NCBI RefSeq assembly: GCF_900116045.1
Contig: NZ_LT630450.1
Coordinates: 2,070,501-2,134,500, forward strand
DNA: 64,000 bases
Source: Desulfovibrio piger
Lineage (GTDB): Bacteria; Desulfobacterota; Desulfovibrionia; Desulfovibrionales; Desulfovibrionaceae
Direction of reading: 5' to 3'
Below, in pieces: positions 12,648 to 57,662 of the stretch (its first letter is position 1; each line of letters starts with the position of its first letter). The translations under genes and the position numbers were made by a program. The notes below the pieces were generated by a model. That model was given only the letters and a program-made list of their open reading frames with translations. It ran no database searches and was not told the DNA's origin.

Positions 12648-12798
12648 GATGCTTTACGGTTGCGCGGGAGACAGTACCGGAAAACATGCCGGAGCCATTT
12701 CCTTTGGGCATTGTCGAATATCTTTGGGCACAGGCGGCATCCCCGTGGACAGTGCCGTCTGTCTTTCCTATGTGCGGGTTTTGGGGAAGAAGGGGGTA

Positions 12799-12917
12799 CG
12801 GGGGAGGGGACCTCTTTTTGCCGCTGGCAGCGACCGAAGGCGGCCGCAGGCCGTGCCCGTTGGCGCATAGGCGCCTTACGGGCATCGATAGCAAGGATAA
12901 AGGGGTTCCCTCCCCCG
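12799..12917 (+). repeat. Structured dispersed element, copy 1
   Basis: The outer arms CGGGGGAGGGGACCTCTTT (12799-12817) and 12899-12917 pair over 19 positions if two G-U pairs are allowed. Inside are three hairpins: CGCT-GGC-AGCG (12822-12832), CGGCC-GCA-GGCCG (12841-12853) and TGCCCGT/ACGGGCA (12854-12860 with 12878-12884). The last one's loop carries an additional small hairpin. The core matches copies at 29970-30089 and 53685-53807. It ends 22 bases from the stop codon of the U32 gene. Confidence 0.85.
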
Positions 12918-12938
12918 TTCTCCGTTTATTTTGCCATG

Positions 12939-29698: not shown

Positions 29699-29730
29699 GG
29701 TGATGTTTTTTGAGGAACCCCTCGTCCCTC

Positions 29731-29793
29731 CTGCCGATGCCCGCAGCTTTTGGTCATGTAACGAGCTCGGCCTTTGGGCCCCCGGTCGCTGCC
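29731..29793 (-). repeat. Degenerate, inverted copy of the structured element
   Basis: On the minus strand this segment has GGCAGCGACC, a GGCC-CAAA-GGCC hairpin and GCTGCGGGCATCGGCAG, all features of the element's core. The long outer arms and the TGCCCGT half are missing. It is inverted relative to the good copy at 29970-30089. Confidence 0.55.
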
Positions 29794-29861
29794 GGTACAC
29801 GAAGGCCTTCCCCGGCGCCCTGATAAAGGGGGGAGGATATTTCCTTCGGAAAAGATAAAAC

Positions 29862-29969: not shown

Positions 29970-30089
29970 TTTGAGGGGGAAACCCCTCTCGCGCCAGCAG
30001 CGACCGGATGGCGGCCCGCAGGGCCGTGCCCGTTGCGACGCAGGCAGCTGCGGGCATCGGCAGCAGAGATGAGGGGATCCCCCCTCAAA
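29970..30089 (+). repeat. Structured dispersed element, copy 2
   Basis: The arms TTTGAGGGGGAAACCCCTC (29970-29988) and 30071-30089 pair at 17 of 19 positions. The core has CGGCCC-GCA-GGGCCG (30012-30026) and TGCCCGT/GCGGGCA (30027-30033 with 30050-30056). The first small hairpin is weak in this copy. The right end is 31 bases from the stop of the minus-strand gene at 30120. Confidence 0.85.
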
Positions 30090-34495: not shown

Positions 34496-34677
34496 ATCGT
34501 TTCCTTGTGGTTGGAGTCAGGCAGCGCGGCTGCCGGGGATTCCGGGAAGGGACGCCGGGGAGTTTTTACCGGGCCTGTCCTTTGGAAAAGTAGGGCAACA
34601 GAAGGGGACTGGCTACACGAGCCCCATCCCTGCGCTGTCCCCCTGCTGAAAGTTTTGGGAAGGGAACGGGGGAGCGC

Positions 34678-34726
34678 GAGGGGGAGAGGGAGAACCGTTT
34701 TTCAAAACGGTTTCCTTCTCCCCCTC
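34678..34726 (-). terminator. Long hairpin terminator after the 34739 gene
   Basis: GAGGGGGAGAGGGAGAACCG pairs with a matching pyrimidine arm over more than 20 positions around TTTTTCAAAA. It lies 13 bases from the stop codon of the minus-strand gene. The G-rich arm resembles those at 7624-7654 and of the three structured elements. Confidence 0.8.
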
Positions 34727-34738
34727 GCCTGTTCCTTA

Positions 34739-53684: not shown

Positions 53685-53807
53685 ATGAAGGGGGAAGGGG
53701 ACGTTTTCCGCTGGAAGCGGCCGAAGGCGGCCCGCAGGGCCGTGCCCGTTGCGACGGAGAAAGCTACGGGCATCGACAGCAGAGATAACGTCCCCTTCCC
53801 CCCTCAT
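53685..53807 (+). repeat. Structured dispersed element, copy 3
   Basis: The arms GGGGGAAGGGGACGTT (53690-53705) and 53787-53802 pair perfectly over 16 positions, and further out ATGA pairs with TCAT. Inside are CCGCT-GGA-AGCGG (53708-53720), CGGCCC-GCA-GGGCCG (53728-53742) and TGCCCGT/ACGGGCA (53743-53749 with 53766-53772). The stop codon of the large FAD gene is 26 bases from its right end. Confidence 0.88.
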
Positions 53808-53832: not shown

Positions 53833-56800
53833 CTAGCACTGGACGATGCGCACGTCGCCGCGGGTCTCGTTGGCGCGGCGGCGGAAGCGCTGGCGGCGGT
53901 CCTCACCGTCCACCTGGTTGGCCAGCCATTCCAGCACATGCAGCACGGGGTGCTTTTCCTTGAGCTGGATGAGGCAGCGGGCGATGCCGATCTTGCAGGA
54001 CGGGCAGCCCACCAGGATGGGCCCGGCGTAGCAGGCGCCTGTCTGGGGCTGGGGCTCGAAGGCCCTGGCCAGGCGTTCCTTTTTGCGGGCGCGCAGCAGG
54101 TTGTAGATGGTGGGGGAGGTCACGGCGCCCATGCCGGACTCGCCGCAGCAGCCGGGGATGGTGGTGACCTTGACCTTGCAGAGCTGTTCCAGGGCGCCGG
54201 TAAGCTGGGACTGCCCCTTGAGGGTGGGCACGCCCGCCCATTCGCAGTGGCAGGCCGCGTGGTAGAGCACGCTGGTGCCGGGGGCCACCGGGGCTTCCAT
54301 GCTCTCGTGCTGGAGCAGGGGCAGGACGATCTGGCTCACGTCCTTCTGTTCCAGCTGCGGGAACTGCTCATTGAGCTTCATGCGGGCCAGGCTGTCGCGG
54401 CAGGAGCCGCAGGCCGTGGCCAGGTAGCGCACGTCGAAGCCCTGCTTGGCGAGGTTGCGCAGCATGGAGGCCAGATACTGGCGGTTCTGGGCCATGTTGT
54501 CTTCGTATTCGGTATCCATGCCCGCGGCCAGCAGGGGATAGCCGCAGCACAGGTGGCGCGGCGGCACGGCCACGGCGTGGCCGGTGTGCAGCAGCAGCAT
54601 GATGGCGGCCAGGCCGATGCGGTCATAGAAGAGCGAACCGCCGCAGCCGGGGAAGTAGAGCACGCAGGGCATGCCCGGCGTCACTTCCCTGGGCGCGAAC
54701 ACGGAGCCGCGGTGCAGGCGCAGGGATTCATAGAGGTTGGTATAGCCCATCTTGGGGCCGCTGCCCGCGAAGAGGGGGCTCTGCATGCGCTTTTTCCACA
54801 CCGCAGGCACCACGCCCAGCAGCTTGTTCTGCACCTTCTGGCCCAGCGAGGCCATCTTGGCCGCCTTGGGCACGCGGGACGACACGTCATGCACCAGCCA
54901 TTCCAGGGCGCGCTTCTTGATGGGATGGCCGCCGGCGTTCTCGTGCTCCAGCAGGGAGCGCAGGGTCAGGGCCACCTCGCCGGACGGGATCTTGACCGGG
55001 CAGTTGGCCAGGCAGCGGCCGCAGGCCGTGCAGTGTTCCACCAGGTCGCGCAGCCAGCGCAGCAGGTTGTCGTCGATGGCGCCCTTGTTGACCTGCGAGT
55101 AGTAGACGGCCTCCAGCAGCATGCCCAGCACCATGTTCTTGTTGCGGGGATGGTACTGCATGGAGCGCTCGGGATAGCACATGGAACAGACCTGCTTGCA
55201 CTTGCCGCAGCGGGTGCAGACCTGCACCGTGGACAGCAGGCTGATGAGCTTTTCCTTGTCCGGCAGGCCGCTGGCGTGGATGTCGTTGATGAGCCGGTTG
55301 AAGGAGAAGGTGAAGGGGCGCACGGGCAGCTCGCGATGCACCAGCTTGGCCGGGTTCATGACGTCGCGGGGGTCCACGCGTTCCTTGAAGGCGCGCAGGG
55401 CGTCCATCTTGCTCTTGCCGAGGAAGGAGATCTTGGTGATGCCGATGCCGTGTTCCCCGGAGACCTCGCCGCCCATCTCCTGGCACTCGGCCATGACGCG
55501 GGCCGCGGTCTCTTCGGCCTCTTCCAGCATGTGGGCGTCGTTGGAGTTGACCGGGATGTTCACATGGCAGTTGCCGTCACCGGCATGCATGTGGCTGGCC
55601 ACCACGATGCGGCTGGCTTCCATGTAATCACGGATCTTGCCGATCTTCTTGTCCAGATGGGCGTACTTCCGGCCCATGCCGGCCAGAAAGGCCTCGGCCC
55701 GCTTCCAGAGTTCGGTATCGGAAAGCTCGGCCTGCGGGTTGTCGCCGGACGCCACCTTGGAGGCAAAGGAGAATTCACGGTTGAACTCCTTGTCCTCCAT
55801 GGGGAAGCCGGGCAGGCGGCCCACTTCCTGCAGGGCGTAGCGGTAGGCCTGGGCCGTGCATTCCAGGTTGAGCTGCTCCAGGAAAAGGGCGAAGTCCGGG
55901 ATGCGGTCCATGGGGATGACCACGTCCTCGTTGAGCTTGAAGCCGGAGGTGCGCTTGGCGATGGCCGACAGGCGGTGCCGGTCTTCCCAGAATCGCTCGC
56001 CTTCCTTGTCGTCCTGGGCCACGATGATGTCCACGTTGTCCTGTTCTTCCACCACGCAGACGATGTCGTTGACGCACTTGTCCAGCAGGTAGGGGTCGTC
56101 GCCGTCCACCTGGAGGATGATGACCGAGATGGGCAGGCCCTCGTACTTCTGGGACTTGCGCTTGTACTCGATGGCCTGCACGTACTTGGCGTTGAACTCT
56201 TCCAGGGCGGACAGGTGGGCATAGTCGCCTTCCTGGCGGATGCGGTTACGCAGGCCCACCAGCTCGCGCACCACCACGGCGGCGGGGTGCATGGAGCGGC
56301 CGAAGAATTCCAGCACCATGACGCGCTTGAACCTGGGCTTGGGATGGATGATGAAGCAGGCCTCGGTGATGATGCCGTCCACGCCTTCCTTCTGCATGCC
56401 GGGCAGGCCGCCCAGGGCCTTGTTGGTCACGTCCTTGCCCAGGCCGGGCAGGCGGATCTCGTCGCCGCGCAGGTGGATGACGTTGCGCACGCCGCCGCTG
56501 ATGTCCTTGACCACGAACACGGCCGTTTCTTCGGGCAGGATCTTGTGGCGGGGATGGTTCTCGCGCTCCACACTGATGATCTCGCCCGTGGGCGTGACCA
56601 TGCGCCACCAGAGCAGGTTGTCCAGGGTTGTGCCGTATTCGAAGGCGCTGGGGCCGCCGGCGTTCTCGGAGACGTTGCCGCCGATGGACGAGGCCTGCTT
56701 GGAGGCCGGGTCCACGGAGAAGAGCGCCCCGGCCGCGTCCACGGCCTTGATGACGTTCTGGGTGATGGCGCCGGCTTCCACGGTGACGGTCATGTTCTCA

Positions 56801-57399
56801 AGGTCGATGGGGCCGATCTTGGTCAGGCGGGTGAGGCTGACGATGACCGTGCGCTTGCGGGCCGGCACGGCGCCGCCGGTCATGCCGGAGCCGCCGCCGC
56901 GCGGGATGAGGGCGAACTTCATGTCATTGGCCAGCTTCACCAGGGCGGCCACCTGTTCGGCGCTGTCGGGCTCCACCACCAGCAGGGGCAGTTCCATGCG
57001 CAGGTCCGTGGCGTCCGTGGCCGAGGCCACCAGGGCGGAGGGCGAGGAAAGGATGCACTCGCCGGGCAGGATGTTGCGCAGGGTGGAGATCAGCTCTTCG
57101 CGGAAGCTGCGTTCGGCCTCGTAGGCGGACCAGAACATGGTGATGCCCTCGCCGATGGCGTTGGCGAAATAATGGGCCAGGGCCATGGATTCCCGTTCGA
57201 AGCGGGCGTGCACGCTGTTGCGCACGGTCTCCACGTTGATGAAGGGATTGTAGGCCACCAGGAACAGTTCTTCGGCAATGGCAATGGCCAGATGCCGCAC
57301 AGACTCGGGCCACTCCGCGAAGTCGTCGATATTGATACGCAGGATGCGGTTGACCACATAGTCAGGTGAGATGGATATGTGCGGACCCTTGTGAGCCAT
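53833..57399 (-). CDS. Large FAD/iron-sulfur oxidoreductase, D-lactate or glycolate dehydrogenase type
   Basis: The 1188-residue protein has an FAD-binding PCMH domain (LIPRGGGSGMTGG), an FAD-linked oxidase C-terminal domain (HAGDGNCHVNIPVN), two [4Fe-4S] motifs (CTRCGKCKQVCSMC and CTACGRCLANCP) and a C-terminal CCG-type domain (HLCCGYPLLAAGMD and IPGCCGESGMG). Such fusions oxidise D-lactate or a similar 2-hydroxy acid and pass electrons to the respiratory chain. The start ATG 57399 (MAHKGPHISISPDY) follows GAGGTACCTACGCC. A structured repeat lies just after its stop. Confidence 0.92.
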   Translation of the reverse strand: MAHKGPHISISPDYVVNRILRINIDDFAEWPESVRHLAIAIAEELFLVAYNPFINVETVRNSVHARFERESMALAHYFANAIGEGITMFWSAYEAERSFREELISTLRNILPGECILSSPSALVASATDATDLRMELPLLVVEPDSAEQVAALVKLANDMKFALIPRGGGSGMTGGAVPARKRTVIVSLTRLTKIGPIDLENMTVTVEAGAITQNVIKAVDAAGALFSVDPASKQASSIGGNVSENAGGPSAFEYGTTLDNLLWWRMVTPTGEIISVERENHPRHKILPEETAVFVVKDISGGVRNVIHLRGDEIRLPGLGKDVTNKALGGLPGMQKEGVDGIITEACFIIHPKPRFKRVMVLEFFGRSMHPAAVVVRELVGLRNRIRQEGDYAHLSALEEFNAKYVQAIEYKRKSQKYEGLPISVIILQVDGDDPYLLDKCVNDIVCVVEEQDNVDIIVAQDDKEGERFWEDRHRLSAIAKRTSGFKLNEDVVIPMDRIPDFALFLEQLNLECTAQAYRYALQEVGRLPGFPMEDKEFNREFSFASKVASGDNPQAELSDTELWKRAEAFLAGMGRKYAHLDKKIGKIRDYMEASRIVVASHMHAGDGNCHVNIPVNSNDAHMLEEAEETAARVMAECQEMGGEVSGEHGIGITKISFLGKSKMDALRAFKERVDPRDVMNPAKLVHRELPVRPFTFSFNRLINDIHASGLPDKEKLISLLSTVQVCTRCGKCKQVCSMCYPERSMQYHPRNKNMVLGMLLEAVYYSQVNKGAIDDNLLRWLRDLVEHCTACGRCLANCPVKIPSGEVALTLRSLLEHENAGGHPIKKRALEWLVHDVSSRVPKAAKMASLGQKVQNKLLGVVPAVWKKRMQSPLFAGSGPKMGYTNLYESLRLHRGSVFAPREVTPGMPCVLYFPGCGGSLFYDRIGLAAIMLLLHTGHAVAVPPRHLCCGYPLLAAGMDTEYEDNMAQNRQYLASMLRNLAKQGFDVRYLATACGSCRDSLARMKLNEQFPQLEQKDVSQIVLPLLQHESMEAPVAPGTSVLYHAACHCEWAGVPTLKGQSQLTGALEQLCKVKVTTIPGCCGESGMGAVTSPTIYNLLRARKKERLARAFEPQPQTGACYAGPILVGCPSCKIGIARCLIQLKEKHPVLHVLEWLANQVDGEDRRQRFRRRANETRGDVRIVQC

Positions 57400-57662
57400 G
57401 GCGTAGGTACCTCGTTGTCTTCTGCATTTTCCTTGCGCACGGGCCCGGCGGGCCGGATGCACAAGTGGAGAAACCTTGTTTTTTACTGCTATTGGCCGCG
57501 CAAGGCAAGCACGCGCCCATGACGGGGCCGCTGTCTTCACCAGACAGGGAGCAGATTTCAGGAATGATTCCTGTCATGCCTGTCATCCCTTGTGCTCTTT
57601 ACATTTCCCCAAAGTTGAAAGATGCTGTGCGTCACATCTGATCCCTGGAAAGGAGATTCCAC

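Follow-up and report, generated by a model that had tools for sequence, protein, structure and literature searches.

The window, a stretch of 64,000 nucleotides belonging to a complete 2.81 Mb genome of Desulfovibrio piger (G000), contains three structured copies of a repeat at 12799-12917, 29970-30089 and 53685-53807, where the sequence-only reading had placed them. The third copy lies on the minus strand and follows, in the sense direction, a gene for a FAD-linked oxidase with 4Fe-4S and cysteine-rich domains (53833..57540, minus strand; PF01565, PF02913, PF02754). It is made up of a seamless cassette of 70 nt (53717..53786, minus) and a host hairpin, whose 5' arm is at 53787..53807 and whose apex and 3' arm are at 53685..53716 (both minus, in sense orientation). 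Both parts of this hairpin have a cassette-free counterpart in the genomes G081 and G074. Copy 1 has a cassette of 69 nt (12830..12898) between a 5' arm at 12899..12926 and an apex and 3' arm at 12790..12829, and copy 2 has a cassette of 71 nt (30000..30070) between the corresponding parts at 30071..30089 and 29970..29999, all on the minus strand; G081 and G074 also have a cassette at the site of copy 2. The neighbouring genes indicate that the RNA sense strand is minus, because the host hairpin follows a stop codon and is in sense with that gene. The earlier count of three good copies in 64 kb was correct as far as it went, but close to copy 2, on the other strand, there is a fourth, divergent cassette copy (29723..29804, plus; counterparts in G081 and G074), matched at E = 5.3e-4 by a covariance model, R1. 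A plain purine-rich hairpin without a cassette, an inverted repeat at 34676..34728 with no strand assigned, appears host-like by eye.

Compared in sense orientation, the copies have a conserved core of about 70 nt and variable arms. The three copies align at 75% mean column identity (189 columns, flanks included) and, on either strand, fold more stably than dinucleotide shuffles (z of -3.85 to -8.07), with none of 200 shuffles equally stable in each of the six folds. The family in G000 was found by BLAST with copy 3 and with R1, which was built from ten copies (10 of 17 aligned cores were used, and L018b was omitted beforehand). The expectation of further copies in the genome was borne out, R1 giving 47 matches in G000 at E ≤ 1 and 38 at E ≤ 0.001.

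Each apparent cloverleaf is a host hairpin located just after a stop codon, with a seamless cassette of about 70 nt near the hairpin apex. The repeat had been described as one cloverleaf with a closing stem of 16-19 bp. Natural empty sites showed that this stem is a hairpin existing without the insert and that the insert is about 70 nt, and the cloverleaf as a single unit whose closing stem is under selection was thereby ruled out. The cassette length was 68-71 nt in 70 of 105 copies, within a range of 66-77 nt.

The empty sites of copy 3 were located with the C-terminal 300 aa of its neighbour gene, which G081 and G074 match at 98% identity. The locus is filled in G000, and these two D. piger genomes keep the hairpin after the corresponding gene without the cassette. 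The alignment contains one long gap (71 nt for G081, 70 nt for G074), and the remaining gaps are of at most 2 nt. Outside the gaps, 90 of 98 (G081) and 90 of 99 (G074) bases are identical, and no target duplication was found at either empty site. Both sites matched a prior prediction from removal of the core. Deletion of the core by eye gave back a plain hairpin in several copies, including copy 3, and 17 plain core-less hairpins of one arm pattern are present in G000, several with apex letters like the cassette-adjacent ones (by eye). The joined flanks of 24 copies gave a mean fold of -38.4 kcal/mol at the predicted cut. When the cut was scanned by folding, the left end was well placed and the best right cut fell 8 nt inside the unit. 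The consensus ends of the cassette are (ATCTC)TGCTG and GGTCGC. The base before the insert was preferentially C in 7 of 11 copies from other genomes, the sole preference in that small sample, and weak preferences were detected at +3 to +5 after the insert (0.56-0.68 bits).

A second clean case was found at about 1767 kb, where G000 has two units (C1:1767166-1767336) and G081 a plain hairpin. At a facing hairpin about 1.1 kb from this doublet the state is reversed, G081 being filled (C37:48928) and G000 plain, and the variant CCTTTGTCGC is common to the cores of this reciprocal pair. When 20 G000 groups were mapped to G081, 11 were filled, 8 were scored empty and 1 fell into N; the five-unit array of G000 was left out of the orthologue mapping. 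Clean empties accounted for only 2 of the 20 groups, copy 3 and the 1767 kb doublet. The other empties in G081 were a core-less hairpin with other arms (copy 1), a missing whole hairpin (L017), diverged sites (L051 and L058) and sites with degenerate cores (L144 and L145). Filled and empty sites, respectively, numbered 10 and 1 from G000 to G074, 11 and 1 from G081 to G000, 9 and 0 from G081 to G074, 9 and 2 from G074 to G000, and 9 and 2 from G074 to G081. The flanks of filled and empty sites are about 91-98% alike between relatives. The seamless presence or absence of the cassette is probably attributable mostly to insertion rather than to precise loss; precise loss may apply at single loci.

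Units also occur head to tail. Five units with a period of 71 nt are located at C1:1777.8-1778.1 kb in G000, and four pairs with a period of 68, which falls within the length range of single cassettes, were detected in three named MAGs when 80 of at least 120 GTDB loci were scanned. The joints in G000, GGTCGC followed directly by ATCTCTGCTG, share their ends with the insertions; the initial three or four letters are different in other genomes. At one mapped site the number of units varies, with two in G074 (L230) and one each in G081 and G000.

The cassette forms a closed three-helix fold consisting of a closing stem (GCUGUCGA/UCGGUCGC), hairpin A (TGCCCGT/ACGGGCA, with a conserved loop) and hairpin B (CGGCCC/GGGCCG). 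In an alignment of 83 rows from 70 hand-chosen sources (A4), 92.6% of cells were paired and a double change occurred in 12 of 19 pairs. The covariation exceeded that of the controls: 45 cells showed a double change, compared with 5.9 in shuffles, and none of the 500 shuffles reached this number. Double changes were found in 5 of 7 pairs of hairpin A and in all 6 pairs of hairpin B; the rows were aligned with a model containing these two hairpins, which biases the result towards them. The closing stem, which is outside the model, had 88.6% of cells paired and a double change in 1 of 6 pairs, indicating weak covariation. Slid controls gave 22-43% paired cells, 12-24 double-change cells and scores of 0.014-0.055, compared with 0.155 for the structure. 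The number of double-change pairs is weak by itself, because the slid controls still keep 7-11 such pairs against 12 in the structure; paired cells, double-change cells and score separate the two better. The earlier view of compensated change as a sign of selection for structure therefore stands for hairpins A and B of the insert, but it is not secure for the arms, where own pairing between orthologues was not significantly better (p = 0.27) and template switching offers an alternative.

The loop of hairpin A, CGTA(A/G)CTTCCT(T/G)CGTCG(C/T)AACG, is kept with other stems in relatives in other species (by eye). The loop pattern with at most 2 mismatches was present in 11 of 12 genomes and had no match in the reversed control. 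At one locus of G081 (L446, C37 at about 7.3 kb), the 3' end of a gene that we take to be translation-initiation-factor-2-like appears to be duplicated, and the 22-nt loop motif lies between the two copies.

The arms differ between copies and fit their own partners on average, as had been noted from the three copies. Among 24 copies of G000, the mean duplex energy was -33.3 kcal/mol with the own arm and -26.2 kcal/mol with swapped arms, and none of 20,000 permutations was as good. In 20 of the 24 copies the own arm outperformed the mean swap, but in only 4 was it the single best partner. The corresponding numbers were 10 and 5 of 17 copies in G021 and 10 and 5 of 18 in G019 (0 of 20,000 permutations in each). 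For 23 copies of other genomes, the own arms were marginally better paired (1,096 of 20,000 permutations), and insertion into hairpins is therefore not a demonstrated rule there. Between orthologues, the preference for the own partner was not significant (23 pairs, some sharing loci; own pairing stronger in 7, equal in 10 and weaker in 6), so recent concerted change of the arms is not claimed.

Placement after stop codons is a property of hosts of the D. piger type. Within 300 nt upstream, the neighbouring gene ran in the sense direction at 30 of the 33 G000 copies (2 opposite), at 16 of 19 copies of G021 (2 opposite), 14 of 20 of G019 (5 opposite), 3 of 8 of G028 (3 opposite) and 7 of 21 copies from other genomes (10 opposite). 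Genes were called with a simple GC3-based script, and the copies that were neither sense nor opposite had no neighbour called. The cassette starts at a median of 40-46 nt past the stop codons in G000, G021 and G019. The apparent orientation of the cassette results from the main host in the D. piger group being a hairpin just 3' of stop codons.

Unrelated hosts are occupied as well. In G028, the core is embedded in a repeat of about 600 bp that is MITE-like, with the terminal inverted repeats CAGGGCAGACGCATCT and apparent target duplications of 9-11 bp (by eye, three copies; loci L129-L136). The MITE hairpin was filled in all four loci fetched from G028, and plain copies were found in G079 (L410, L434) and G024 (L411). 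None of 26 loci fetched from other genomes, two of which reach the contig end and several of which cover part of the query, had the core at this hairpin. MITE-related sequence was present in 8 of 61 genomes searched (L410-L438). In G006, the core of L065 is located at a different point of a MITE-type sequence, and L424 (G061) and L431 (G006) are without it; the longest gap is 75 nt, the gaps are clean and no target duplication was found against either copy. These insert-free copies are other copies of the repeat and not orthologous sites. A second insert, of about 130 nt and resembling a REPIN-like inverted pair of hairpin-A-like units, was seen by eye in L414, L418, L423 and L428. It is present or absent among the MITE copies of G006, G079, G033 and G061, with L410, L424 and L431 empty.

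The cassette was confined to the genus Desulfovibrio in the genomes searched with the model: at E ≤ 0.001, 20 of the 37 Desulfovibrio genomes (G000 among them) had matches, and none of 24 genomes from other genera of the order did. G021 and G019 had 73 and 69 matches, respectively, many with near-equal scores, which suggests recent spread there. A 45-nt core pattern was found at no fewer than 120 GTDB loci, and 119 of the matches listed were titled Desulfovibrio. One exact core match among those listed (L379) was titled uncultured Firmicutes bacterium, possibly a mislabelled or mixed bin. Viral contigs gave no exact match to the pattern, and phages and plasmids gave no BLAST match at E ≤ 0.01. 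In the comparison with Rfam, no known family matched the element above the gathering score; the best sub-threshold hits at copy 3 were hairpin-shaped miRNA models at 24.5 bits (E of 0.008 and 0.02) against cut-offs of 73 and 168. No description of the cassette was found among the matches listed in the open-licence literature, and the word Desulfovibrio is absent from PMC3733652 and PMC6006769. The small mobile element family of Desulfovibrio is real and, as far as these searches show, undescribed.

Several known systems resemble the cassette in part. The SDR5 small dispersed repeats of Nostoc are likewise tiny mobile units that sit within other structured sequences; they are shorter than the cassette and consist of a single hairpin, and the likeness is one of description alone. 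Like REP and REPIN sequences, the cassette is a short hairpin repeat in many copies, mostly outside genes, with no target duplication seen. Related inverted pairs, which are relatives and not the cassette itself, also occur in this genus, present or absent in MITE copies (by eye). Unlike these elements, which are single palindromes of 20-40 bp, the cassette has 66-77 nt and three helices, sits inside other hairpins and forms head-to-tail units. It has no unpaired GTAG or CGTC tag at its foot, these letters occurring within hairpin A, and no RAYT flanked by it was found at 30 Y1_Tnp loci (18 in the genus). The cassette thus works like a REP-type element but is not a member, because its size, tag and RAYT association differ. 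CGTC REPs are likewise without a known transposase according to excerpts of PMC3733652. The small multi-hairpin units and tandem insertions of mitochondrial repetitive hairpin-forming and double-hairpin elements are similar, and target duplications are said to be lacking in those of the Allomyces type (PMC2800124, in excerpt); these elements, however, belong to eukaryotic organelle genomes, and no homology is implied. Like MITEs, the cassette is non-autonomous and dispersed, but it lacks both target duplication and terminal inverted repeats, the pairing near its ends being that of the internal closing stem; in G028 it lies within a MITE-like repeat. Its head-to-tail organisation, and nothing else, also brought integron attC cassettes into consideration. 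It shares the absence of target duplication with IS200/IS605-derived elements but has no conserved short 5' target, only C at -1 being favoured in the 11 copies from other genomes.

The best explanation, to which we give a probability of about 0.68, is a REP-like mobile cassette, non-autonomous and about 70 nt long, that moves as folded single-stranded DNA. The sequence-only reading had offered a structured RNA, a REP/MITE-like mobile palindrome or both; it came close in proposing something structured and mobile of REP/MITE-like kind, and was wrong in taking one stem-closed cloverleaf as the unit. The cassette would enter existing hairpins, or sites beside them, without duplicating the target; such hairpins may be hit through their exposed single strands. 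It would move as folded single-stranded DNA, perhaps via a circle, and an enzyme acting in trans may recognize the conserved loop of hairpin A. Movement of a folded single strand would fit the seamless insert, the lack of target duplication, the ends at or near the foot of the closing stem, the frequent use of hairpins as hosts and the head-to-tail units. Searches for Y1_Tnp in 37 genomes and RVT_1 in 10 carrier genomes identified no moving enzyme. A more specific and only tentative proposal is that of a minimal single-stranded DNA cassette of about 70 nt, without cargo or known recombinase, which might be excised and inserted by shape and not by sequence, use hairpins as landing sites and build head-to-tail arrays.

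The main rival to mobility as folded single-stranded DNA, rather unlikely in our judgement, is that the apex content is copied from one hairpin to a similar one without a dedicated enzyme, by template switching during replication or by ectopic gene conversion. One process would then also keep the arms matched and make the repeated units. Template switching is a published route that makes and mends hairpins with matched arms (PMC8794818, in excerpt), the host-hairpin arms are alike across sites, and the arms are more diverged than the cores (83% against 93% identity in the 23 orthologous pairs). The reciprocal filled and empty sites at 1767 kb are also close together and share CCTTTGTCGC. However, the cassette occurs in hosts with unrelated arms as well, and the own-partner preference expected of such mending was not significant between orthologues.

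It is unlikely that the cassette is a REP/REPIN-type element moved by a RAYT or an IS200-like Y1 transposase. By eye, relatives in the genus share the loop and take the form of single hairpins or inverted pairs, and target duplication is absent; a clover-shaped fold with an asymmetric excision product has been proposed for REPINs (PMC3116915, in excerpt). Y1_Tnp was searched for in 23 genomes of the genus and 14 of other genera, with G028, G074 and G081 outside this set, and 23 of these 37 genomes had matches. Six carriers, however, had no match at E ≤ 0.001 (G004, G005, G006, G016, G019 and G022), and of these G005 and G016 are near-complete (98% and 99%). No cassette-level score was obtained at the 30 Y1 loci, where the best score was 34 and copies were called at 40 or more, and IS200 ends, read at two loci of G000, look different. 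As the obvious mover, RAYT/Y1 was rejected, since the 37 genomes, 30 loci and two IS200 ends gave no link except one hairpin in G021. The sole Y1_Tnp match of G021 (L148, C197 at about 14.4 kb) is followed by this hairpin, GATGCCCG..CGGGCATC, which has stem letters of hairpin A; the likeness is a single case and may be due to chance.

A selected cis-acting 3'-UTR RNA, a terminator or stability element kept for gene expression, is in our view improbable. The sense placement at a median of 40-46 nt past stop codons, the stable folds and the covariation would agree with such a role, but orthologous genes keep the hairpin without the cassette, and the orientation bias is absent in other hosts. No intrinsic-terminator-like site was detected at copy 3 in a scan limited to loops of 3-8, which is blind to a cassette-filled hairpin. 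Least probable by a wide margin is a small RNA retrocopied and inserted by a reverse transcriptase: the structured nature of the unit and its lack of target duplication and terminal inverted repeats would suit it, but RVT_1 was found in 4 of 10 carrier genomes searched and gave no match in six (G081, G021, G019, G006, G004 and G025), and reverse transcriptase was rejected as the mover for this absence.

The cassette provides a clear filled-versus-empty case of a mobile unit of about 70 nt, which is very small for a transposable element. It also calls for caution, in that compensated stems need not indicate a functional RNA; the variable stem here is a landing site. With 73 and 69 matches, many of near-equal score, G021 and G019 are the genomes where the mover may be findable, and a search for it there would make the spread of REP-like repeats without a known transposase directly testable.

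Two minor features accompany the copies of G021 and G019. A shared TAGGGCCTGTTAACACTATTCGTAAGTTGTTTT-like stretch, which opens with TAG, precedes L090, L096, L105, L115 and others; this TAG is possibly the stop codon of the gene. A small extra hairpin, CCCAGCCTTTCC..GGAAAGGCG, was seen by eye in the 3' arm of several copies and is inverted in L093 and L120 relative to L091, L096, L099 and others.
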